Source: a virus
DNA: 64,000 nt
Reading direction: 5' to 3' (one strand)
Virus record (IMG/VR): IMGVR_UViG_3300027770_000025
Span: 1-64,000 of that record
Below the pieces are notes generated by a model that worked only from the letters and a program-made list of their open reading frames with translations, was not told the origin of the DNA and searched no databases. Below, in pieces: positions 1 to 63,445 of this stretch. Each line of letters opens with the position of its first letter. Within the stretch, counting starts at the first letter, position 1. The translations under genes and the position numbers were made by a program.

Positions 1-970
1 TAGTTCCTGCTGATCCTGAAGTACCTGATGTACCACTAGTTCCTGAGGTTCCTGAAGTTCCGCTAGTTCCTGCTGATCCTGAAGTTCCACTAGTTCCTGC
101 TGATCCTGAGGTACCCGATGTACCACTGGTTCCTGATGTACCACTAGTTCCTGCTGATCCTGAAGTTCCGCTAGTTCCTGCTGATCCTGAAGTTCCGCTA
201 GTTCCTGCTGATCCTGAAGTACCCGATGTACCACTAGTTCCTGATGTACCACTAGTTCCTGCTGATCCTGAAGTACCTGATGTACCACTAGTTCCTGAGG
301 TTCCTGAAGTTCCACTAGTTCCTGAGGTTCCTGAAGTTCCGCTAGTTCCTGCTGATCCTGAAGTTCCGCTAGTTCCTGCTGATCCTGAAGTACCCGATGT
401 ACCACTAGTTCCTGAAGTTCCACTAGTTCCTGCTGATCCTGAAGTTCCACTAGTTCCTGCTGATCCTGAAGTTCCACTAGTTCCTGAAGTTCCACTAGTT
501 CCTGCTGATCCTGCTGATCCTGAAGTTCCTGCTGATCCTGAAGTACCACTAGTTCCTGAAGTACCCGATGTACCACTGGTTCCTGATGTACCACTAGTTC
601 CTGCTGATCCTGAAGTTCCACTAGTTCCTGAGGTTCCACTAGTTCCTGCTGATCCTGAAGTTCCTGAAGTTCCACTAGTTCCTGCTGATCCTGCTGATCC
701 TGAAGTACCTGATGTACCACTAGTTCCTGCTGATCCTGAAGTTCCGCTAGTTCCTGCTGATCCTGAGGTACCCGATGTACCACTAGTTCCCGAAGTTCCG
801 CTAGATCCGCTAGATCCTGTTTTTCCACTAGATCCTGCTGATCCTGCTGATCCTGAAGTTCCACTAGTTCCTGCTGATCCTGAGGTACCCGATGTACCAC
901 TAGTTCCTGAAGTTCCACTAGTTCCTGCTGATCCTGAAGTACCACTAGTTCCTGAAGTTCCACTAGATCC
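1..970 (-). repeat. Gly-X-Y coding repeat, distal block
   Basis: Tandem 9-bp units encode GTS, GSA and GSS triplets. A stretch from about base 800, including the rare GKT triplet, recurs 2007 bp away at about 2807, with roughly 60 nt identical and a further stretch nearly so. 2007 is a multiple of 9. Confidence 0.9.
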
Positions 971-3900
971 AGCAGCTCCATCAGACATCCAACTAACTGA
1001 ATAGGTTTCTGTTCCTCCCCACTGTCCATTCCCAACTACAAAAGTAAGAGGTATTGTCCAAAAGTTATTGAGGACGGTATAGAACAAGTTTCCAACTGTA
1101 AATATACCAAAAACACTAGTATCATTAACCTGCGTTATTTGTAAACGAGAAGGTTTACCCGCGGCTTGATTAGCATCTAAAGCATTAAACCAACCAGTAT
1201 ACGCTCCAGTTAAAGAAGAATCTGAAATATCTATTGATGTGGTATCGGCAAAATTAGCGTTGTCGCCAATGATAATACCGGAGCCCATCTCCGGTGGGTT
1301 ATTAGTCTCCCACCTTCCTGAGTTTGCACCATCAATTCCTGGATCCCCTTGAGATCCTTGAGCTCCCGATGTACCACTTGAACCGCTAGACCCCGATGTT
1401 CCTGAAGAACCGCTTGAACCTGAAGTTCCTGAAGAACCGCTAGTACCACTAGTTCCTGCTGATCCTGAAGTACCACTAGTTCCTGAAGTACCACTAGTTC
1501 CTGAAGTTCCACTAGTTCCACTAGTTCCTGCTGATCCTGATGTACCTGATGTACCACTAGTTCCTGAAGTTCCGCTAGTTCCTGCTGATCCTGAAGTACC
1601 ACTAGTTCCTGCTGATCCTGAAGTACCTGATGTACCACTAGTTCCTGAAGTTCCACTAGTTCCTGCTGATCCTGAAGTACCTGATGTACCACTAGTTCCT
1701 GAAGTTCCACTAGTTCCTGAAGTACCTGAAGTTCCACTAGTTCCTGAAGTTCCACTAGTACCTGCTGATCCCGAAGTACCTGAAGTTCCTGCTGATCCTG
1801 AAGTACCACTAGTTCCTGAAGTACCACTAGTTCCTGAAGTTCCACTAGTTCCACTAGTTCCTGCTGATCCTGATGTACCTGCTGATCCTGATGTACCTGA
1901 AGTTCCACTAGTTCCTGAAGTTCCTGCTGATCCTGAAGTACCTGCTGATCCTGAAGTACCTGCTGATCCTGAAGTACCACTAGTTCCTGAAGTACCTGAT
2001 GTACCACTAGTTCCTGCTGATCCTGAAGTTCCACTAGTTCCTGAAGTACCTGCTGATCCCGAAGTACCTGAAGTTCCTGCTGATCCTGAAGTACCACTAG
2101 TTCCTGAAGTACCACTAGTTCCTGAAGTTCCACTAGTTCCACTAGTTCCTGCTGATCCTGATGTACCTGCTGATCCTGATGTACCTGAAGTTCCACTAGT
2201 TCCTGAAGTTCCTGCTGATCCTGAAGTACCTGCTGATCCTGAAGTACCTGATGTACCACTAGTTCCTGAAGTTCCACTAGTTCCTGAAGTACCTGAAGTT
2301 CCACTAGTTCCTGCTGATCCTGAAGTACCTGCTGATCCTGAAGTACCACTAGTTCCTGAAGTACCTGAAGTACCACTAGTTCCTGCTGATCCTGAAGTAC
2401 CTGATGTACCACTAGTTCCTGAAGTTCCACTAGTTCCTGCTGATCCTGAAGTACCTGAAGTTCCTGCTGATCCTGAAGTACCACTAGTTCCTGAAGTACC
2501 ACTAGTTCCTGATGACCCATTAACCCCTGATGTTCCCGCTGATCCGGAATTTCCAGATGTACCACTAGATCCTGCAGTTCCATCTAGTCCGGCTATTCCT
2601 GAAGTACCTGCTGATCCTGAAGTACCACTAGTTCCTGAAGTTCCTGCTGATCCTGATGTACCACTAGTTCCTGATGATCCTGAAGTACCACTAGTTCCTG
2701 CTGATCCTGAAGTACCTGAGGTACCTGCTGATCCTGAAGTTCCTGATGTTCCTGCTGATCCTGAAGTTCCGCTAGTTCCTGATGTTCCTGCTGATCCTGA
2801 TGTACCGCTAGATCCGCTAGATCCTGTTTTTCCACTAGATCCTGCTGATCCTGCTGATCCTGAAGTTCCGCTAGTTCCTGCTGATCCTGAAGTACCCGAT
2901 GTACCACTAGTTCCTGAGGTTCCACTAGTTCCTGCTGATCCTGAAGTACCTGATGTACCACTAGTTCCTGAGGTTCCTGAAGTTCCGCTAGTTCCTGCTG
3001 ATCCTGAAGTTCCACTAGTTCCTGCTGATCCTGAGGTACCCGATGTACCACTAGTTCCTGAAGTTCCACTAGTTCCTGCTGATCCTGAAGTTCCTGATGT
3101 ACCACTAGTTCCTGAAGTTCCACTAGTTCCTGCTGATCCTGAAGTTCCGCTAGTTCCTGCTGATCCTGAAGTACCTGATGTACCACTAGTTCCTGAAGTT
3201 CCACTAGTTCCTGCTGATCCTGAAGTTCCGCTAGTTCCTGCTGATCCTGAAGTACCTGATGTACCACTAGTTCCTGAGGTTCCTGAAGTTCCGCTAGTTC
3301 CTGCTGATCCTGAAGTTCCACTAGTTCCTGCTGATCCTGAAGTACCTGATGTACCACTAGTTCCTGAGGTTCCACTAGTTCCTGCTGATCCTGAAGTTCC
3401 GCTAGTTCCTGCTGATCCTGAAGTACCTGATGTACCACTAGTTCCTGAGGTTCCACTAGTTCCTGCTGATCCTGAAGTTCCGCTAGTTCCTGCTGATCCT
3501 GAAGTACCACTAGTTCCTGCTGATCCTGAAGTACCTGATGTACCACTAGTTCCTGAAGTTCCACTAGTTCCTGAAGTTCCTGCTGATCCTGAAGTACCTG
3601 ATGTTCCACTAGTTCCTGATGATCCATTAACTCCTGAAGTTCCTGCTGATCCTGAAGTTCCTGCTGATCCTGAAGTTCCTGAAGTTCCTGAAGTTCCACT
3701 AGTTCCTGCTGATCCTGAGGTACCTGCTGATCCTGAGGTACCACTAGTTCCTGAAGTACCTGCTGATCCTGAGGTACCACTAGTTCCTGAAGTACCTGCT
3801 GATCCTGAGGTACCACTAGTTCCTGAGGTTCCACTAGTTCCTGATGATCCGTTAACTCCTGAAGTACCTGCTGATCCTGAAGTACCTGATGTACCACTAG

Positions 3901-6900
3901 TTCCTGAAGTTCCACTAGTTCCTGCTGATCCTGAAGTTCCTGAAGTTCCTGAAGTTCCTGCTGATCCTGAGGTACCACTAGTTCCTGCTGATCCTGAAGT
4001 TCCACTAGTTCCTGCTGATCCTGAAGTTCCACTAGTTCCTGATGATCCCGAAGTACCTGATGTACCACTAGTTCCTGAAGTTCCACTAGTTCCTGCTGAT
4101 CCTGAAGTTCCTGAAGTTCCTGAAGTTCCTGAAGTTCCTGAAGTTCCACTAGTTCCTGAAGTTCCACTAGTTCCTGATGATCCCGAAGTACCACTAGTTC
4201 CTGAAGTTCCACTAGTTCCTGAAGTACCTGCTGATCCTGAAGTTCCACTAGTTCCTGAGGTTCCACTAGTTCCTGATGATCCGTTAACTCCTGAAGTTCC
4301 TGCTGATCCTGAAGTTCCCGAAGAACCATTTGCTCCCGATGTTCCTGCTGATCCTGAAGTTCCTGAAGAACCACTTGCTCCTGATGTTCCTGCTGATCCT
4401 GAAGTTCCAGAAGAACCATCTGCTCCTGATGTTCCAGAAGAACCATCTGCTCCTGAAGTTCCAGAAGATCCACTTGCTCCTGAAGTTCCCGAAGAACCAT
4501 TTGCTCCCGATGTTCCTGCTGATCCTGAAGTTCCTGAAGAACCACTTGCTCCTGATGTTCCTGCTGATCCTGAAGTTCCAGAAGAACCATTTTCTCCTGA
4601 TGTTCCAGAAGATCCACTTACTCCTGATGTTCCAGAAGATCCACTTGCTCCTGAAGTTCCCGAAGAACCATTTGCTCCCGATGTTCCTGCTGATCCTGAA
4701 GTTCCTGAAGAACCACTTGCTCCTGATGTTCCTGCTGATCCTGAAGTTCCAGAAGAACCATTTTCTCCTGATGTTCCAGAAGATCCACTTGCTCCTGAAG
4801 TTCCCGAAGAACCATTTGCTCCCGATGTTCCTGCTGATCCTGAAGTTCCTGAAGAACCACTTACTCCTGATGTTCCTGCTGATCCTGAAGTTCCAGAAGA
4901 ACCATTTTCTCCTGATGTTCCAGAAGATCCACTTGCTCCTGATGTTCCAGAAGATCCACTTGCTCCTGAAGTTCCCGAAGAACCATTTGCTCCCGATGTT
5001 CCTGCTGATCCTGAAGTTCCTGAAGAACCACTTGCTCCTGATGTTCCTGCTGATCCTGAAGTTCCAGAAGAACCATTTTCTCCTGATGTTCCAGAAGATC
5101 CACTTGCTCCTGATGTTCCTGCTGATCCTGATGTTCCAGAAGATCCACTTGCTCCTGAAGTTCCCGAAGAACCACTTGCTCCTGATGTTCCCGAAGAACC
5201 ACTTGCTCCTGAAGTTCCTGCTGATCCTGATGTTCCCGAAGAACCATCTGCTCCTGATGTTCCCGAAGAACCGTTTTCTCCTGATGTTCCTGCTGATCCT
5301 GAAGTTCCTGAAGAACCACTTGCTCCTGATGTTCCTGCTGATCCTGAAGTTCCAGAAGAACCATCTGCTCCTGATGTTCCAGAAGAACCATCTGCTCCTG
5401 ATGTTCCCGAAGAACCATCTGCTCCTGAAGTTCCAGAAGATCCTGCTGCTCCTGATGTTCCTGCTGATCCTGATGTTCCAGAAGAACCATCTGCTCCTGA
5501 AGTTCCAGAAGAACCACTTGCTCCTGATGTTCCAGAAGATCCGTTTGCTCCTGATGTTCCAGAAGATCCATCTGCTCCTGAAGTTCCAGAAGATCCACTT
5601 GCTCCTGAAGTTCCCGAAGAACCATTTGCTCCCGATGTTCCTGCTGATCCTGAAGTTCCTGAAGAACCACTTGCTCCTGATGTTCCTGCTGATCCTGAAG
5701 TTCCAGAAGAACCATTTTCTCCTGATGTTCCAGAAGATCCACTTGCTCCTGATGTTCCTGCTGATCCTGATGTTCCAGAAGATCCACTTGCTCCTGATGT
5801 TCCCGAAGAACCACTTGCTCCTGAAGTTCCCGAAGAACCACTTGCTCCTGAAGTTCCTGCTGATCCTGATGTTCCCGAAGAACCATTTGCTCCTGAAGTT
5901 CCCGAAGAACCGTTTGCTCCTGAAGTTCCAGAAGAACCACTTGCTCCTGAAGTTCCCGAAGAACCACTTGCTCCTGAAGTTCCCGAAGAACCACTTGCTC
6001 CTGATGTTCCTGCTGATCCTGAAGTTCCAGAAGAACCATCTGCTCCTGATGTTCCCGAAGAACCATCTGCTCCTGAAGTTCCAGAAGATCCTGCTGCTCC
6101 TGAAGTTCCAGAAGTTCCAGAAGATCCTGCTGATCCTGATGTTCCTGCTGATCCTGATGTTCCAGAAGAACCATCTGCTCCTGATGTTCCCGAAGAACCA
6201 TCTGCTCCTGAAGTTCCAGAAGATCCTGCTGCTCCTGAAGTTCCAGAAGATCCTGCTGCTCCTGATGTTCCTGCTGATCCTGATGTTCCAGAAGAACCAC
6301 TTGCTCCTGAAGTTCCAGAAGATCCACTTGCTCCTGATGTTCCAGAAGATCCACTTGCTCCTGATGTTCCAGAAGATCCACTTGCCCCTGAAGTTCCCGA
6401 AGAACCACTTGCTCCTGATGTTCCCGAAGAACCACTTGCTCCTGAAGTTCCTGCTGATCCTGATGTTCCCGAAGAACCGTTTGCTCCTGATGTTCCCGAA
6501 GAACCGTTTGCTCCTGATGTTCCCGAAGAACCACTTGCTCCTGATGTTCCCGAGGAACCTGCTGCTCCTGATGTTCCCGAGGAACCTGCTGCTCCTGATG
6601 TTCCCGAGGAACCTGCTGCTCCTGATGTTCCCGAAGAACCACTTGCTCCTGAAGTTCCTGCTGATCCTGATGTTCCCGAAGAACCATTTGCTCCTGAAGT
6701 TCCCGAAGAACCGTTTGCTCCTGATGTTCCCGAAGAACCTGCTGCTCCTGATGTTCCCGAAGAACCTGCTGCTCCTGATGTTCCCGAGGAACCTGCTGCT
6801 CCTGATGTTCCCGAAGAACCACTTGCTCCTGAAATACCACTAGTTCCACTGCTTCCACTTCCCGTTCCTCCTGATATAGTTATTGTGGTATATCCGCTAG

Positions 6901-7798
6901 AATCAGTTACAGACGAAACGCCAGATCCAGTAAAGTTTAGACCAGTAACACCTACTCCTATCTGGGATCCACTAGAATAAGTATTTATAGCAGATCCTGA
7001 TCCCCCTGATCCACCAGGTATTGTAACCGTTACCGTATTGTATTGATCCCCAGTTTCAGTTACTGTAACACCAGCACCGGTAAATCCGACATACCAAGCT
7101 CCGTTGAAATGCTGTCCCGTTTGTCCAATGATTACTGGAACATAATCAGAAATTGCAAGTACGTCTATATTATAAGCAGCCTCTGCTATACCAGCTGGTA
7201 GATCCGGATATACATCATTCGAAACAGCATTTTGATATGTCCTATAATCAGATTGCTGAGATATTGCACTATAAGTAGCATTAGTAGGTACTCTATTAAG
7301 AGAACTGTATGCACCATCCTCATCATAAGTACAGAAGAAATTAATGTATTGATAAGATGGTTTATCGGTTATTTTGTTAATTACAAAGGTATTAAATACC
7401 CCCGAAATAGGATTAAATGATCCAGCATCTGTTGCTATGTTTGTAACTAAAAAACCCTCCAATAAATCAGCAGTTGTATAAATGCCGTTTACCTCAAGAT
7501 AAGTTCCTTCACAATAAAATACGCCGTCACCACACGATGTGGTAATGGTAACACCAGTATTAGTTGCTGTTCCATTGGCGGACATTACGAATGAAGAAGC
7601 ACCGTAATTAACAGAAATTACGGTAGTTGATGAGGGAATTCCTGTACCTGTTACAGCAAGACCTGGTATAATGAGATTAATATTAGATACGCTAGTAACT
7701 ACATTACTTCCGTTTGATACGTTTCCTGTTATCTGTGGTCCGTTGGTAAAAAATTCAGGTATAAATAATTGACCGGTTATTCTAGGTTGACTCCCCAT
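1..7798 (-). CDS. Giant collagen-like fibre protein (3' end beyond window)
   Basis: A single minus-strand frame runs without a stop from an ATG at 7798 to the left edge, giving at least 2599 codons. Residues 1 to about 317 are a Ser/Thr/Gly-rich, beta-type head without repeats. From there to the edge the protein is a run of Gly-X-Y triplets, mainly GTS, GSS, GSA, GAS and GNS, with almost no proline. It is broken once by a unique island of about 120 residues (about 2157-2276, bases 971-1330) that contains Trp and aromatic residues. The frame was confirmed at bases 7, 970, 2590, 6847 and 7798. The gene follows the 7811-10180 fibre gene by 12 nt, so it is probably co-transcribed with it. Known family context: collagen-like Gly-X-Y shafts are common in phage tail fibres. 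The Thr/Ser density makes O-glycosylation plausible (inference). The C-terminus is not visible. Confidence 0.9.
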   Translation of the reverse strand, partial: MGSQPRITGQLFIPEFFTNGPQITGNVSNGSNVVTSVSNINLIIPGLAVTGTGIPSSTTVISVNYGASSFVMSANGTATNTGVTITTSCGDGVFYCEGTYLEVNGIYTTADLLEGFLVTNIATDAGSFNPISGVFNTFVINKITDKPSYQYINFFCTYDEDGAYSSLNRVPTNATYSAISQQSDYRTYQNAVSNDVYPDLPAGIAEAAYNIDVLAISDYVPVIIGQTGQHFNGAWYVGFTGAGVTVTETGDQYNTVTVTIPGGSGGSGSAINTYSSGSQIGVGVTGLNFTGSGVSSVTDSSGYTTITISGGTGSGSSGTSGISGASGSSGTSGAAGSSGTSGAAGSSGTSGAAGSSGTSGANGSSGTSGANGSSGTSGSAGTSGASGSSGTSGAAGSSGTSGAAGSSGTSGAAGSSGTSGASGSSGTSGANGSSGTSGANGSSGTSGSAGTSGASGSSGTSGASGSSGTSGASGSSGTSGASGSSGTSGASGSSGTSGASGSSGTSGSAGTSGAAGSSGTSGAAGSSGTSGADGSSGTSGADGSSGTSGSAGTSGSAGSSGTSGTSGAAGSSGTSGADGSSGTSGADGSSGTSGSAGTSGASGSSGTSGASGSSGTSGASGSSGTSGANGSSGTSGANGSSGTSGSAGTSGASGSSGTSGASGSSGTSGASGSSGTSGSAGTSGASGSSGTSGENGSSGTSGSAGTSGASGSSGTSGSAGTSGANGSSGTSGASGSSGTSGADGSSGTSGANGSSGTSGASGSSGTSGADGSSGTSGSAGTSGAAGSSGTSGADGSSGTSGADGSSGTSGADGSSGTSGSAGTSGASGSSGTSGSAGTSGENGSSGTSGADGSSGTSGSAGTSGASGSSGTSGASGSSGTSGASGSSGTSGSAGTSGASGSSGTSGENGSSGTSGSAGTSGASGSSGTSGSAGTSGANGSSGTSGASGSSGTSGASGSSGTSGENGSSGTSGSAGTSGVSGSSGTSGSAGTSGANGSSGTSGASGSSGTSGENGSSGTSGSAGTSGASGSSGTSGSAGTSGANGSSGTSGASGSSGTSGVSGSSGTSGENGSSGTSGSAGTSGASGSSGTSGSAGTSGANGSSGTSGASGSSGTSGADGSSGTSGADGSSGTSGSAGTSGASGSSGTSGSAGTSGANGSSGTSGSAGTSGVNGSSGTSGTSGTSGTSGSAGTSGTSGTSGTSGTSGSSGTSGTSGTSGTSGTSGTSGTSGTSGSAGTSGTSGTSGTSGTSGSSGTSGTSGSAGTSGTSGSAGTSGTSGSAGTSGTSGTSGSAGTSGTSGTSGTSGTSGSAGTSGVNGSSGTSGTSGTSGTSGSAGTSGTSGTSGSAGTSGTSGTSGSAGTSGSAGTSGTSGTSGTSGSAGTSGSAGTSGVNGSSGTSGTSGTSGSAGTSGTSGTSGTSGTSGTSGSAGTSGTSGSAGTSGTSGSAGTSGTSGTSGTSGTSGSAGTSGTSGSAGTSGTSGTSGTSGTSGSAGTSGTSGSAGTSGTSGTSGTSGTSGTSGSAGTSGTSGSAGTSGTSGTSGTSGTSGSAGTSGTSGSAGTSGTSGTSGTSGTSGSAGTSGTSGTSGTSGTSGSAGTSGTSGSAGTSGTSGTSGTSGTSGTSGSAGTSGTSGTSGTSGTSGSAGTSGTSGSAGSAGSSGKTGSSGSSGTSGSAGTSGTSGTSGSAGTSGTSGSAGTSGTSGSAGTSGTSGSSGTSGTSGSAGTSGTSGTSGSAGTSGIAGLDGTAGSSGTSGNSGSAGTSGVNGSSGTSGTSGTSGTSGSAGTSGTSGSAGTSGTSGTSGTSGTSGSAGTSGTSGTSGTSGTSGSAGTSGSAGTSGTSGTSGTSGTSGTSGTSGTSGSAGTSGSAGTSGTSGTSGTSGSAGTSGSAGTSGTSGTSGTSGTSGTSGTSGSAGTSGTSGSAGTSGTSGTSGSAGTSGTSGTSGTSGTSGSAGTSGSAGTSGSAGTSGTSGTSGTSGSAGTSGSAGTSGTSGTSGTSGTSGTSGTSGSAGTSGTSGSAGTSGTSGTSGTSGTSGTSGTSGTSGTSGTSGSAGTSGTSGTSGTSGTSGSAGTSGTSGSAGTSGTSGTSGTSGTSGSAGTSGTSGTSGTSGTSGTSGTSGSAGTSGTSGSSGTSGSSGSSGTSGSSGSSGTSGAQGSQGDPGIDGANSGRWETNNPPEMGSGIIIGDNANFADTTSIDISDSSLTGAYTGWFNALDANQAAGKPSRLQITQVNDTSVFGIFTVGNLFYTVLNNFWTIPLTFVVGNGQWGGTETYSVSWMSDGAAGSSGTSGTSGTSGSAGTSGTSGTSGTSGTSGSAGTSGTSGSAGSAGSSGKTGSSGSSGTSGTSGTSGTSGSAGTSGTSGSAGTSGTSGTSGSAGSAGTSGTSGTSGSAGTSGTSGTSGTSGSAGTSGTSGTSGTSGTSGTSGTSGSAGTSGSAGSAGTSGTSGTSGTSGSAGTSGTSGSAGTSGTSGTSGTSGTSGSAGTSGTSGSAGTSGTSGTSGTSGTSGTSGTSGTSGTSGSAGTSGTSGTSGTSGTSGSAGTSGTSGSAGTSGTSGSAGTSGTSGTSGTSGTSGSAGTSGTSGSAGTSGTSGTSGTSGTSGTSGSAGT
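1331..4323 (-). repeat. Gly-X-Y coding repeat, middle block
   Basis: Tandem 9-bp units encode mainly GTS/GSA/GTS patterns. About 200 nt starting at 1761 are repeated identically from 2049, an offset of 288 bp. Part of the same unit also occurs 333 bp upstream, at about 1458. All offsets are multiples of 9, so whole triplets are gained or lost. Confidence 0.9.
4324..6847 (-). repeat. Gly-X-Y coding repeat, proximal block with 171-bp higher-order unit
   Basis: This block favours GSS, GTS, GAS, GAN and GAA triplets. A marker string recurs at 4330, 4501, 4672, 4816, 4987 and 5626. The steps are 171, 171, 144, 171 and 639 bp, all multiples of 9. The 171-bp unit equals 19 triplets. This points to amplification of long units on top of the 9-bp unit. 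Confidence 0.9.
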
Positions 7799-10312: not shown

Positions 10313-10825
10313 TCAGGTTAATCTTATTCTAACTGCACCGCTATTGTGATATATCCCACCTAAAGGAATACCCCCCGTTGCTGCATATGTGTCATTAGGA
10401 AAATTATATAATGCATAATTAGTTAATATAAGTGTACCCGTAGTTCCTGTTATAGTTTGACTACCGTAAAAAGTATTAGCACCAGTTCCGCCCGCTCCTG
10501 TAGGACCAGCATTTCCAGTAGAACCCGTACCTCCTGCTATTGTTATGTTCACGAATCCATTGGCCCCTGTAATACCAGAGACGCTAGATCCGGTAAAATT
10601 AAATCCGGTAACACCCGTTAATATCTCTAATCCGTTTCTATAAACTGAAGCGTTAACAACATCATAGGGATTCCAATATGAAAGATTGTTCCAATATGTA
10701 GTTCCATCTCCTATTTTCATAAGAGAGGTATTTGTCTCGTAGCCGAATTCACCCACTAAAAGTATGGGATTATTTACCCCCCATATTGTTGAGGTGTCTC
10801 TTCTTATTTGTATTCTAAAAGCCAT
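10313..10825 (-). CDS. Short tail fibre with Mtd-like N-terminal module
   Basis: 170 aa. Residues 1-51 carry the same fibre-start module as the 7811-10180 and 43077-43913 proteins (RIQIRRD, GEFGYETNT, MKIGDG, W-NLSYW). Residues of about 70-104 (VTGFNFTGSSVSGITG, ending ITIAGGTGS) closely match the segment just before the repeats in the giant fibre. A short Gly-rich stretch (GPTGAGGTGA) and a small C-terminal domain follow. The gene sits 20 nt after the 10846-11142 gene and is followed by a terminator. It may be an accessory fibre or fibre-foot protein (inference). Confidence 0.75.
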   Translation of the reverse strand: MAFRIQIRRDTSTIWGVNNPILLVGEFGYETNTSLMKIGDGTTYWNNLSYWNPYDVVNASVYRNGLEILTGVTGFNFTGSSVSGITGANGFVNITIAGGTGSTGNAGPTGAGGTGANTFYGSQTITGTTGTLILTNYALYNFPNDTYAATGGIPLGGIYHNSGAVRIRLT

Positions 10826-11214: not shown

Positions 11215-11964
11215 TTAAAGTATTTCCCTATCTCCGTTAGGAGTAACGTTTTTGGCAAAGAGCTGTTCCATTCTAATTCCGGTTTGCATTAGATTACCCC
11301 TGAACTTTTCTGTGGTTAAATCTTTCTCAGGGAAATACGTTTCTGCAGCAACTGTGAATTTAAAATCTATGTATTGTGGATTATTCTGATAACTGAATTC
11401 TAGTTGTTTAGTCATATCATAGCTTTCAGGAAATCCGACTTGGGCAGGAATTCTAAACCCTTCGTATTCAAAACTGAATTGGTATGTTTTATAGAAAGTT
11501 GTTACTACTGATTGGAATATCTTAAAAGCATCGAGAAGGGTGTCAACTTTTATTGTGATATCAAAAGTTATATTTAGCGGTACTGAATTAGTAAAGGAAG
11601 AAAGTGTCTTCATTTCTCCTTTAAGATCCTCCTGCGCGTATGACATCCGGGTGTATTTATTAGATAATCCTTGAACATCTATCTGAAGAGACTGTAACGA
11701 AACTACTCCCCTTGGGATAACGTCATAGTTACCCTCCGCAACAACCTCGTCAGTTTTACAGTTTGTGTACTTTATAAAGAAATCTTGAAGAAATGACTCA
11801 TCGCCAGTTAGCGAATAGAAAAAAGGAATATAAGTCTCTAATACCTCCTGCTGATCATTTATCTGAATGTACTTCAGTTTATCGTTCATTGACTTAAGTA
11901 GGGAAGTTATTAGTCCTCTTAAGAAAACATCGTCCGTGTTGTATTTTTCTAAAAATCCTGACAT
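11215..11964 (-). CDS. Tail sheath stabiliser/completion-like protein (T4 gp15-like)
   Basis: 249 aa. By eye it follows the pattern of T4 gp15-type tail terminators: an N-terminal helix (LRGLITSLLKSMN), a central stretch with PRG, then LQSLQID and N-Y, and a beta-rich C-terminal half ending in a V-A-A-E-T-Y-F-P segment. The similarity is weak, so this is an inference supported by position: it lies with fibre and structural genes on the minus strand. If correct, the protein caps the tail tube and sheath so the head can dock. It starts 8 nt after the end of the 11972-12865 gene, probably in the same transcript. Another baseplate protein is the alternative. Confidence 0.45.
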   Translation of the reverse strand: MSGFLEKYNTDDVFLRGLITSLLKSMNDKLKYIQINDQQEVLETYIPFFYSLTGDESFLQDFFIKYTNCKTDEVVAEGNYDVIPRGVVSLQSLQIDVQGLSNKYTRMSYAQEDLKGEMKTLSSFTNSVPLNITFDITIKVDTLLDAFKIFQSVVTTFYKTYQFSFEYEGFRIPAQVGFPESYDMTKQLEFSYQNNPQYIDFKFTVAAETYFPEKDLTTEKFRGNLMQTGIRMEQLFAKNVTPNGDREIL

Positions 11965-39081: not shown

Positions 39082-39741
39082 ATGGAAAAACTAGCAGTAA
39101 TAGTACCCTACAGAAATAGAGCTGAACATCTAAAGGTGTTCATTCCTTATATGGAAAAATCTTTAGCCAAGGAGAAAATTCCATTTAATATATTTATAAT
39201 AGAACAGCATGACGATAAACCATTCAATCGTGCTAAGTTACTAAATATAGGATTTAAAGAAGCTATGAGCTATGACTACTTTGCTTTCCATGATGTTGAT
39301 ATGCTTCCTGTTGATTCGGATTATTCTTTTCCTGATGGACCAACACACCTTTCATCTGAGGTTGAACAATTTAATTGGGGATTACCATATGATGGTTATT
39401 TTGGTGGGGTTACCCTATTCGACAAAGAAAGCTTTGTTAACATTAATGGGTACTCTAATGAGTATTGGGGATGGGGAGCTGAAGACGATGACGTGATTCA
39501 CCGGTGCATGATAAGGGATGTTGACACGTATAGAAAACCATGTAGATACAGGTCTTTGAATCATGAGAGAAACATAGAGAGATTCGAATACAACCAGAAT
39601 CTAACACGACTCTATGAATTTCAGAATTCAGATTCGCCAGAAACTATGATATCAAATGATGGCATATCTAGCTTGATCTACGAAAAGGTATCAACGGACG
39701 ATCTTTCAAGAAAAACAAAATTGATCAGGGTTAAATTATAG
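39082..39741 (+). CDS. GT7-like beta-1,4-galactosyltransferase
   Basis: 219 aa. The sequence follows the animal beta4GalT catalytic domain closely: VIVPYRNR (7-14), FNRAKLLN (48-55), FHDVDMLP with DVD at 71-73, YFGGVTLF, INGYSNEYWGWGAEDDD (about 121-137) and a downstream H-E-R region. DVD and the ED pair bind metal and substrate. Known family members transfer Gal (or GalNAc) beta-1,4 to GlcNAc or Glc. There is no membrane anchor, so it works in the bacterial cytoplasm. It is one of few plus-strand genes, divergent from the sugar operon. Confidence 0.9.
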   Translation: MEKLAVIVPYRNRAEHLKVFIPYMEKSLAKEKIPFNIFIIEQHDDKPFNRAKLLNIGFKEAMSYDYFAFHDVDMLPVDSDYSFPDGPTHLSSEVEQFNWGLPYDGYFGGVTLFDKESFVNINGYSNEYWGWGAEDDDVIHRCMIRDVDTYRKPCRYRSLNHERNIERFEYNQNLTRLYEFQNSDSPETMISNDGISSLIYEKVSTDDLSRKTKLIRVKL

Positions 39742-43076: not shown

Positions 43077-43913
<837 letters not shown>

Positions 43914-46385: not shown

Positions 46386-46419
46386 ATTGTTATATGTTTT
46401 CTTTATCCCAAGTTATGAG

Positions 46420-46492
46420 ATCCTATAGAGGGATTCGAACCCCCGACATTCTCATTAAAATGAGATGCTCTAACCAGCTGAGCTAATGTAGA
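46420..46492 (-). tRNA. tRNA-Lys(TTT)-like, acceptor stem degenerate
   Basis: D arm GCTC/GAGC, anticodon stem TCTCA/TGAGA with loop TTTTAAT (anticodon TTT) and T arm GGGGG/CCCTC are good. The acceptor TCTACAT/TATAGGA pairs only in its first three positions. The 5' acceptor strand coincides with the -7 slot of an early-type promoter, which may explain the loss of pairing. Confidence 0.6.
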
Positions 46493-46514
46493 AAAAAGTT
46501 TCGGGATAAAAAAA
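46483..46514 (-). promoter_or_regulatory. Early-type promoter overlapping the tRNA-Lys 5' end
   Basis: TTTTTTTATCCCG, 11 nt, then TACATTAG (one change from TAnnTTTG). The -7 slot lies inside the tRNA-Lys acceptor strand, so transcription from it would start within the tRNA; it could serve tRNA-Cys and downstream genes. Confidence 0.5.
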
Positions 46515-61705: not shown

Positions 61706-63445
61706 TTAATTTATCTGAATGTAGCTATTCGTATTTTCCTGCGTAGTTAGAGAGTAAATCATAAGATCACCCTCATAAACATCGATATGAGCAGGTTCTC
61801 CTTCTATATCATTAAGCCACCAGGAATCCCTCCCCACTAATTTATGATATATCACTGCATCCTCTGAATCAGGAGTGTGTACCACTATTTTTCGAGTAAC
61901 CTCATTGTCAAGATAGTTTTGTGAATATAGACAATACCCGGTGTGATTGCCTGCATTATCTAGTTTTCTGTATATGTCGCTAATACACCCTTTGTATTTG
62001 GTAGGCAGGTTGCTGACAGATACCACTGTGTTCCATGTGGTATCAGGAAAATCTGATTTCATCTCGATGTTACCTTCTCTAATTAAAACTGAGCCTTTGT
62101 CCAGGTTATCATAGATATAAGCTTCTACTATTTTAAAATCCCTAGATCCTTGTATATTCATCAAATAATCCTCGTAATCTTCCTCTTTAGATATCCGAGG
62201 CATGATCTTCATGAAATGATCTATCTCGCAAAAGAAATAATGGAAAGAAGCATCTTTAGGATAATTTGATTCATTTAGATAGAATAAACCTTTCTTATCG
62301 TTCTTTATTACCGTTTCGGGTATCTGAGAAATCCAGAGCATAGAATTTTCTCCGTATAAGTCATCGGTCTCAAATCTTTGAAAATGCGTGTATCCAATGT
62401 TCTTAGCTATATCTAGGACATTGAACAGGTTTACTAAAACTGATAGACCGTGTTTTTGAAGACCCGATTTTAAATTATGAACCGTGAAGTTACCTTTATC
62501 CGACCAAAAGTCGACATCTTTCACATCCGGATAATCTTTCTTGAATAGCTGGTTACGGCTATCATAGAAATGATAATCCACCATATCTATGATTTCTTTC
62601 TTTATCGAAGTATTTGATACAAGAAAAACGTCCTGCCCATTTGATTTCAATCTATTGATGCATTCTATAAGATTAGATTCTACTTTAGCATCATGAACAA
62701 AGCAATCTATTATAGAGATTGTTTTTGTATTTCTTAGGGTCTCTCTCTTTTCTATAATACCAATAGCCTTTACATTATTGTCATTCTTTTCCTCCTCAGA
62801 TCTAAGAGAAAACATTCCATGCTCACTGTGTCTATATACGCCGCAATTCCAATTATCACATCTTATTTTACCGCGAAGTGAAATCTCATAGTTAAATGCC
62901 CAATCAAGATAAGGAAAATCCCTTATCCATTCTTTTAAAATATTCGGAAAGTTTCTAAAAGTTCTACCGAAGCTGACTATATTAGAATCGAGCAGATCCT
63001 GTGTATTAACCTCATCTTTTTTTGGAAATTTATTATGTCCGGGTTCTGTTGGATCAAATGTCCCGTCGGGCATAAGGCTCACGTATCCAGTAGAGTGCAT
63101 AACATAATCAGGATTACTCTCGAGAAAATCTATTTGCATTTGGAGCTTGTCTGAATTATTTAGATAATCGTCACCGTCTAATATAGTTGCATACTTACCT
63201 TTAGAATTTTCGAGAAGATATTTAATGTTCCCGAACGCTCCTAGATTTTCTGAGCTTTCAAATATAATAACCCTTGGGTCATTTGAGAATTCTTCCCTGA
63301 GTAATCTATTTGTACCATCCCCTGAATGATCATCTCTTATAAGGATCTCGAAGTCGAAATTAGTATTCTGTGACGTGACAGATTTTACACATTCGACTAT
63401 ATAGTTTTCAAAATTATATGATGGTATTATTACGCTTAATATCAT
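61706..63445 (-). CDS. Two-domain glycosyltransferase with GT2 N-terminal domain
   Basis: 579 aa. Residues 1-230 are a GT2 domain: LSVIIPSYNFENYIVECVKSV, RDDHSGDGT, and ILDGDDYL (D-G-D-D metal site). Residues of about 240-579 form a second domain (SIIDCFVHDAKVESNLIECI, DVFLVSNTSIKKEI, FETDDLYG) that looks like another GT-A-like domain with E-T-D-D. A bifunctional enzyme adding two sugars is possible. It follows the 63454 gene by 8 nt. Confidence 0.82.
   Translation of the reverse strand: MILSVIIPSYNFENYIVECVKSVTSQNTNFDFEILIRDDHSGDGTNRLLREEFSNDPRVIIFESSENLGAFGNIKYLLENSKGKYATILDGDDYLNNSDKLQMQIDFLESNPDYVMHSTGYVSLMPDGTFDPTEPGHNKFPKKDEVNTQDLLDSNIVSFGRTFRNFPNILKEWIRDFPYLDWAFNYEISLRGKIRCDNWNCGVYRHSEHGMFSLRSEEEKNDNNVKAIGIIEKRETLRNTKTISIIDCFVHDAKVESNLIECINRLKSNGQDVFLVSNTSIKKEIIDMVDYHFYDSRNQLFKKDYPDVKDVDFWSDKGNFTVHNLKSGLQKHGLSVLVNLFNVLDIAKNIGYTHFQRFETDDLYGENSMLWISQIPETVIKNDKKGLFYLNESNYPKDASFHYFFCEIDHFMKIMPRISKEEDYEDYLMNIQGSRDFKIVEAYIYDNLDKGSVLIREGNIEMKSDFPDTTWNTVVSVSNLPTKYKGCISDIYRKLDNAGNHTGYCLYSQNYLDNEVTRKIVVHTPDSEDAVIYHKLVGRDSWWLNDIEGEPAHIDVYEGDLMIYSLTTQENTNSYIQIN

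Follow-up and report, generated by a model that had tools for sequence, protein, structure and literature searches.

The window, the whole stretch of 64,000 nucleotides analysed here (G000:C1:1-64000), opens on an ORF of 2599 codons on the minus strand that begins with ATG and meets no stop. The 348,582-bp phage contig itself ends at window position 1, so this giant ORF leaves the contig and not just the window. Fibre and tail genes follow it in the window. The far contig end (L006) bears a further open frame of the same orientation, which begins within a collagen-like repeat and ends in a Peptidase_S74 domain. The locus comprises the following features:

2..7798, minus strand: first 2599 codons of the giant collagen-like fibre gene, with no stop before the contig end; match to Pfam Collagen (PF01391), E = 3.7e-285
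6857..7798, minus strand: N-terminal 314-aa region (aa 1-314), non-repetitive, presumed virion anchor
1322..6856, minus strand: array 1, 615 unbroken Gly-X-Y triplets (aa 315-2159)
980..1321, minus strand: globular 'SGRW' knob of 114 aa (aa 2160-2273) between the arrays
8..979, minus strand: array 2, 108 Gly-X-Y triplets (aa 2274-2597), reaching the contig edge
7811..10180, minus strand: second collagen-like fibre of 789 aa, with an Mtd_N domain, Pro-poor arrays and beta domains
10313..10825, minus strand: Mtd_N fibre-like protein, 170 aa
10846..11142, minus strand: 98-aa protein, kept beside gp15 in relatives
11215..11964, minus strand: T4 gp15-like tail sheath stabiliser (PF16724), one border of the fibre cluster
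L006:18832-19998, minus strand: collagen-like and S74 piece at the far contig end

Glycine occupies every third residue throughout the 615 and 108 unbroken triplets of the two arrays. The triplets are GTS (419), GSA (113), GSS (98), GAS (33) and 16 rarer types. Thr fills the X position in 420 of the 723 and Ser the Y position in 554. There is a single Pro in the 723 triplets, and 23 of the 2169 residues (approximately 1%) are charged. Because the imino acids and charged pairs of collagen X and Y positions are nearly lacking, the giant ORF is classed as collagen-like by periodicity alone. Its match to PF01391 scores 920 bits against a cutoff of 27.2, and many PHROG tail-fibre families match it as well, although these matches are partly driven by composition. 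Few collagen-like fibre genes met in our searches are as long.

The sequence-only reading had reported a frame of at least 2599 codons running past the edge, with about 700 triplets and almost no Pro. The frame does stay open to the contig end, and the count of 723 triplets with one Pro agrees. The same reading took the frame to be made of Gly-X-Y triplets, which is true of the 723 but not of aa 1-314 and aa 2160-2273. Bacterial and phage collagens gain stability from Pro in the X position, charged residues, Thr or glycosylation (PMC3368898, PMC8968730), and the earlier remark that the usual Pro or charged pairs are missing is correct for the sequence and agrees with these reports.

A search with 306 aa of the N-terminal region found no relative in IMG/VR or INPHARED. 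The sole similarity found is in its last 43 or so residues, which recur in the neighbouring Mtd_N protein. An AlphaFold2 model of the region, built without an alignment, had a pLDDT of 33 and was unusable for fold search. The knob is homologous to SGRW domains in the L198 fibre (three copies), L009 and L163. A plus-strand ORF of 837 aa (4330..6843) was rejected as a by-product of the codon composition of the repeat and is not counted as a gene. A further Mtd_N protein, which includes a little collagen-like sequence, lies distant from the fibre cluster (window 43077-43913, minus strand).

In the gene order of G001, G002 and G018 the fibre cluster sits by the neck gene between structural genes, as in host-recognition clusters of T4-like phages. 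Pelagimyophages have fibre genes that carry Mtd domains and collagen repeats and are clustered in the same way beside the neck gene (PMC7029224). The late-cluster position between the gp15-like and neck genes, the neighbours with Mtd_N and beta domains, the S74 domain and the PHROG tail-fibre matches all point to an adhesion role. On the best reading, which we hold to be probable, the giant ORF codes for the shaft of a trimeric adhesion fibre of great length, borne on the tail or neck of a T4-like jumbo phage; the trimer is deduced from the S74 domain. Three relatives on contigs of 117-434 kb (L225, L229, L230) have gp15, p98, p91 and neck close together, and no collagen-like fibre genes or homologous glycosyltransferases were found between these genes.

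The domain at the far contig end matches Peptidase_S74 (PF13884) with an E value of 7.5e-15. It carries an SDRDLK motif, the Ser-Lys spacing of which we take to be that of S74 domains. The triplets of this piece include GAQ, GSS, GKT and GVN. Directly past the S74 end lie, in order, DUF6445, GT2, GT2, p91, GT4 and GT9. The DUF6445 gene (L006:18095-18673, minus strand) belongs to PF20043, which Pfam lists as of 'unknown function'. Four residues (H84, D86, H167 and R181) are invariant in 31 aligned members. The predicted structure (pLDDT 90.8) is closest to the prolyl hydroxylases PHD2 and P4H (Z approximately 15); the DUF6445 profile had no match among PDB sequences, and the link came from fold comparison alone. 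The HxD...H triad, the Arg for 2OG and the double-stranded beta-helix of 2OG-Fe(II) oxygenases are all present, and DUF6445 is accordingly a predicted 2OG-Fe(II) oxygenase of the prolyl-hydroxylase fold. The family is widespread in jumbo phages and in cyano- and pelagiphages (including L008-L070), sometimes as two copies beside GT2 genes.

These enzymes may have nothing to do with the fibre. The glycosyltransferases, the oxygenase and, in relatives, the sulfation genes would then act on the host surface or on phage DNA and share only a variable island with it, a reading whose chances we put a little short of even. The authors of the pelagimyophage study assign glycosyltransferases of the same island to O-antigen modification (PMC7029224). 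Cassettes are exchanged freely among close relatives, and DUF6445 occurs away from fibres. A target on the host or the DNA is less easily reconciled with the position of the cassette, which, in the examined members that have it, is embedded among late structural genes with the fibre on one side and the neck on the other.

Relatives without GT4 and DUF6445 have a sulfotransferase, an adenylylsulfate kinase and a cytidylyltransferase/ATP-sulfurylase-like gene at the same place. Such an apparent sulfation cassette lies beside the fibre at L213:2667-4908, L214:1680-3348, L278:5638-6000 and L071:14956-17453 (the last by sequence resemblance only). Elsewhere in the window, positions 39082-39741 (plus strand) match a family 7 glycosyltransferase (Glyco_transf_7N/7C, E 2e-26), followed by a weak HAD-hydrolase match. 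Family 7 glycosyltransferases are known mainly as animal galactosyl- and GalNAc-transferases. A GT2 glycosyltransferase of 579 aa is encoded at 61706-63445 (minus strand), and a tRNA-like gene, its anticodon unresolved, lies in a short tRNA cluster (46419-46493, minus strand).

The relation of the giant ORF to the S74 piece spans an assembly gap. A terminal overlap of at least 15 bases was looked for between the two ends of the contig, and none was found. In G001 and G002 the order gp15, fibres, enzyme cassette, p91, neck, small terminase-like gene, terminase and sheath is unbroken in each, and the two ends of our contig therefore adjoin. The 373,485-bp G018 has an exact terminal overlap of 127 bp located within its own collagen gene; joined there, it has one ORF of 2700 aa at the same locus, with arrays of 262, 36 and 236 triplets and 6 Pro in 534. 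L008 has a GTS/GSA array with 82% DNA identity to that of the window, which continues into S74 within one ORF, and L009 combines the SGRW knob with S74, again in one ORF. We consider that the giant ORF and the S74 piece are probably one giant gene.

The gap could nevertheless hide a stop and another gene. The contig ends would in that case belong to two genes, one for a GTS-and-knob fibre whose tip would lie in the gap and one for an S74 fibre. G001 has three separate collagen-like genes at the locus, and the arrays at the two ends differ in composition (GTS/GSA versus GAQ). Moreover, L198, with 99% identity to our phage in the neck protein, has a fibre of GTS arrays and three SGRW knobs that ends in a different, non-S74 tip; this tip was searched for in the G000 genome and not found. 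Weighed against the single ORFs of L008 and L009 and the single gene of G018, two genes appear unlikely, though with a chance worth keeping in view.

The occurrence of DUF6445 and glycosyltransferases beside the fibre suggests modification in the style of collagens. The shaft might be a Pro-free triple helix, its Thr/Ser-rich triplets hydroxylated and/or O-glycosylated by the neighbouring gene products in the manner of other glycosylated collagens. The genes directly past the S74 end (DUF6445, both GT2 genes, GT4 and GT9), the invariant residues and prolyl-hydroxylase-like predicted fold of DUF6445, and the precedent of virion glycosylation in mycobacteriophages (cited in PMC12619734) fit this reading. 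Among 36 related loci GT4 accompanies 24 of 27 Pro-poor arrays versus one of nine Pro-containing arrays (Fisher p 4e-5). However, on the neck-protein tree of these 36 loci only three independent changes remain and the association is not significant, and modification by adjacent enzymes was rejected as a general rule. In close relatives the same cassette adjoins arrays of 65% and of 10% Ser/Thr. L198 lacks DUF6445 and GT2 genes and still has arrays rich in Ser/Thr, no homologous glycosyltransferase accompanies the Pro-poor arrays of L221 and L222, and DUF6445 also occurs in phages with no fibre nearby. There is, in addition, hardly any proline to serve as substrate of a prolyl hydroxylase. Because of the three changes, the variable Ser/Thr content under a constant cassette and the Pro-poor arrays that lack one, we regard modification of the shaft as doubtful. 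The fuller version, a Pro-free triple helix of hundreds of nm stabilised by phage-encoded hydroxylation or glycosylation (in relatives perhaps sulfation), with cassettes travelling together with the fibre, is slightly more doubtful still.

The lack of imino acids and charge pairs in the GTS triplets also raises the question of whether the shaft is a triple helix at all, a doubt already voiced in the sequence-only reading. The repeat could fold as a polyglycine-II or polyproline-II bundle, like phage S16 gp38 and the snow flea antifreeze protein, or stay disordered. PGII bundles with Gly-rich motifs do exist in phage tips (PMC6851490). Such bundles are built of several short Gly-rich helices linked by turns, whereas array 1 runs for 615 triplets without a break, and an S74 tip indicates a parallel trimer. 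We judge these folds improbable. The literature searched here yielded no usable table of host-guest triple-helix propensities and no biochemical test of GTS/GSA arrays.

The repeat is conserved as protein rather than as DNA. Across the 615 units the first two bases of the Gly codon are invariant and the third varies; Ser alternates between TCN and AGY codons, and the 108 occurrences of (GTS)3 have 36 different DNA versions. Because variation at the codon level spares Gly bases 1 and 2, the Gly-X-Y periodicity is maintained by selection on the protein. The arrays are thus neither chance nor a simple DNA repeat, and codon-level divergence of the units rules out a simple tandem-repeat artefact. 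Internal repeats are exact over as much as 215 bp, and 6% of 127-mers occur more than once, so the true array length may differ from that assembled. That mis-joined repeats of this length have inflated the array is very improbable, given the divergence of the units at synonymous sites and the recurrence of comparable long arrays on independent contigs as well as in the closed G018.

Contigs often end at this place. Among neck-gene contigs of at least 40 kb (n = 37), 21 stop on the fibre side and one on the other at a distance of no more than 10 kb, a large contrast even though some of the contigs are not independent, and several of the fibre-side edges fall within Gly-X-Y arrays. The repeat array accounts for many of these jumbo phage genomes breaking at one place, presumably where assemblers are unable to cross it. 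A degenerate (GTS)5 pattern found at least 120 stretches in IMG/VR, and 118 loci among the matches listed have 0.01 Pro per triplet. Judged by such matches, Pro-poor Thr/Ser arrays are widespread in aquatic phages. The longest unbroken run among the 118 loci has 241 triplets, compared with 262 in G018 and 615 in the giant ORF, although many of these loci are cut off by contig ends and their run lengths are lower bounds. Extreme length sets the giant ORF apart, and its run of 615 is the longest unbroken one found. A different composition is seen at L053:1-9929, where five adjacent fibre genes have Gly-X-Y arrays with X mostly aromatic or Ile (GIS, GYS, GFS, GWS).

We propose a single giant adhesion fibre, a homotrimer, to which the giant ORF contributes the N-terminal part and the greater part of the shaft. 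The N-terminal region would anchor the protein on the virion. Collagen rises 0.286 nm per residue, and the arrays, if triple-helical, would form an extended rod of approximately 620 nm over the visible 2169 triplet residues, interrupted by knobs that the sequence itself shows. The likeliest candidate for the missing end is the collagen-like S74 piece of the far contig end. S74 domains trimerise and fold the C-terminal tip and are then cleaved off, and the same folding and cleavage would apply to the giant fibre. The Pro-free rod may owe its stability to helix length and cooperativity, hydration of Thr and Ser, and trimer clamps at the knobs and tip. Architecture, locus and relatives give good support to the earlier suggestion of an extremely long fibre. 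The sequence-only reading had half of the locus in view; the S74 tip and the modifying enzymes lie at the far contig end.

Known collagen stability rests on proline and hydroxyproline or on charge pairs, and the GTS/GSA arrays have neither. Either a triple helix can do without imino acids, or these phages build their rods on another architecture or modify the chain. Between these options the giant ORF and the closed G018 allow a clean test.

Several known systems share parts of this structure. The EPcl prophage collagens of E. coli (PF01391) likewise have a Gly-X-Y rod in a phage fibre, trimeric end domains and a Pfam Collagen match. They are Pro-rich in X with approximately 22% charged residues, and the longest has 322 residues (PMC3368898), whereas the giant ORF has one Pro per 723 triplets, about 1% charged residues and 1845 residues in one run. 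Fibres with a C-terminal S74 domain (PF13884; T4-like gp37 relatives, PDB 8jov and 6f45 by sequence) share this domain with the far contig end, but the shaft here is collagen-like rather than a triple beta-helix, and the link from S74 to the giant ORF crosses the gap. The host-recognition cluster of pelagimyophages and cyanomyophages also places fibres, Mtd domains, collagen repeats and glycosyltransferases by the neck gene; these phages are another lineage, and the available part of that report mentions no giant proline-free array for them (PMC7029224). The bundles of S16 gp38 and the snow flea antifreeze protein similarly use a Gly-rich motif that needs no proline, and differ from the giant ORF in having turns where it has one 615-triplet run. 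The giant ORF is thus an extreme member, in length and composition, of the known phage collagen-like fibres, most likely with an S74 tip.
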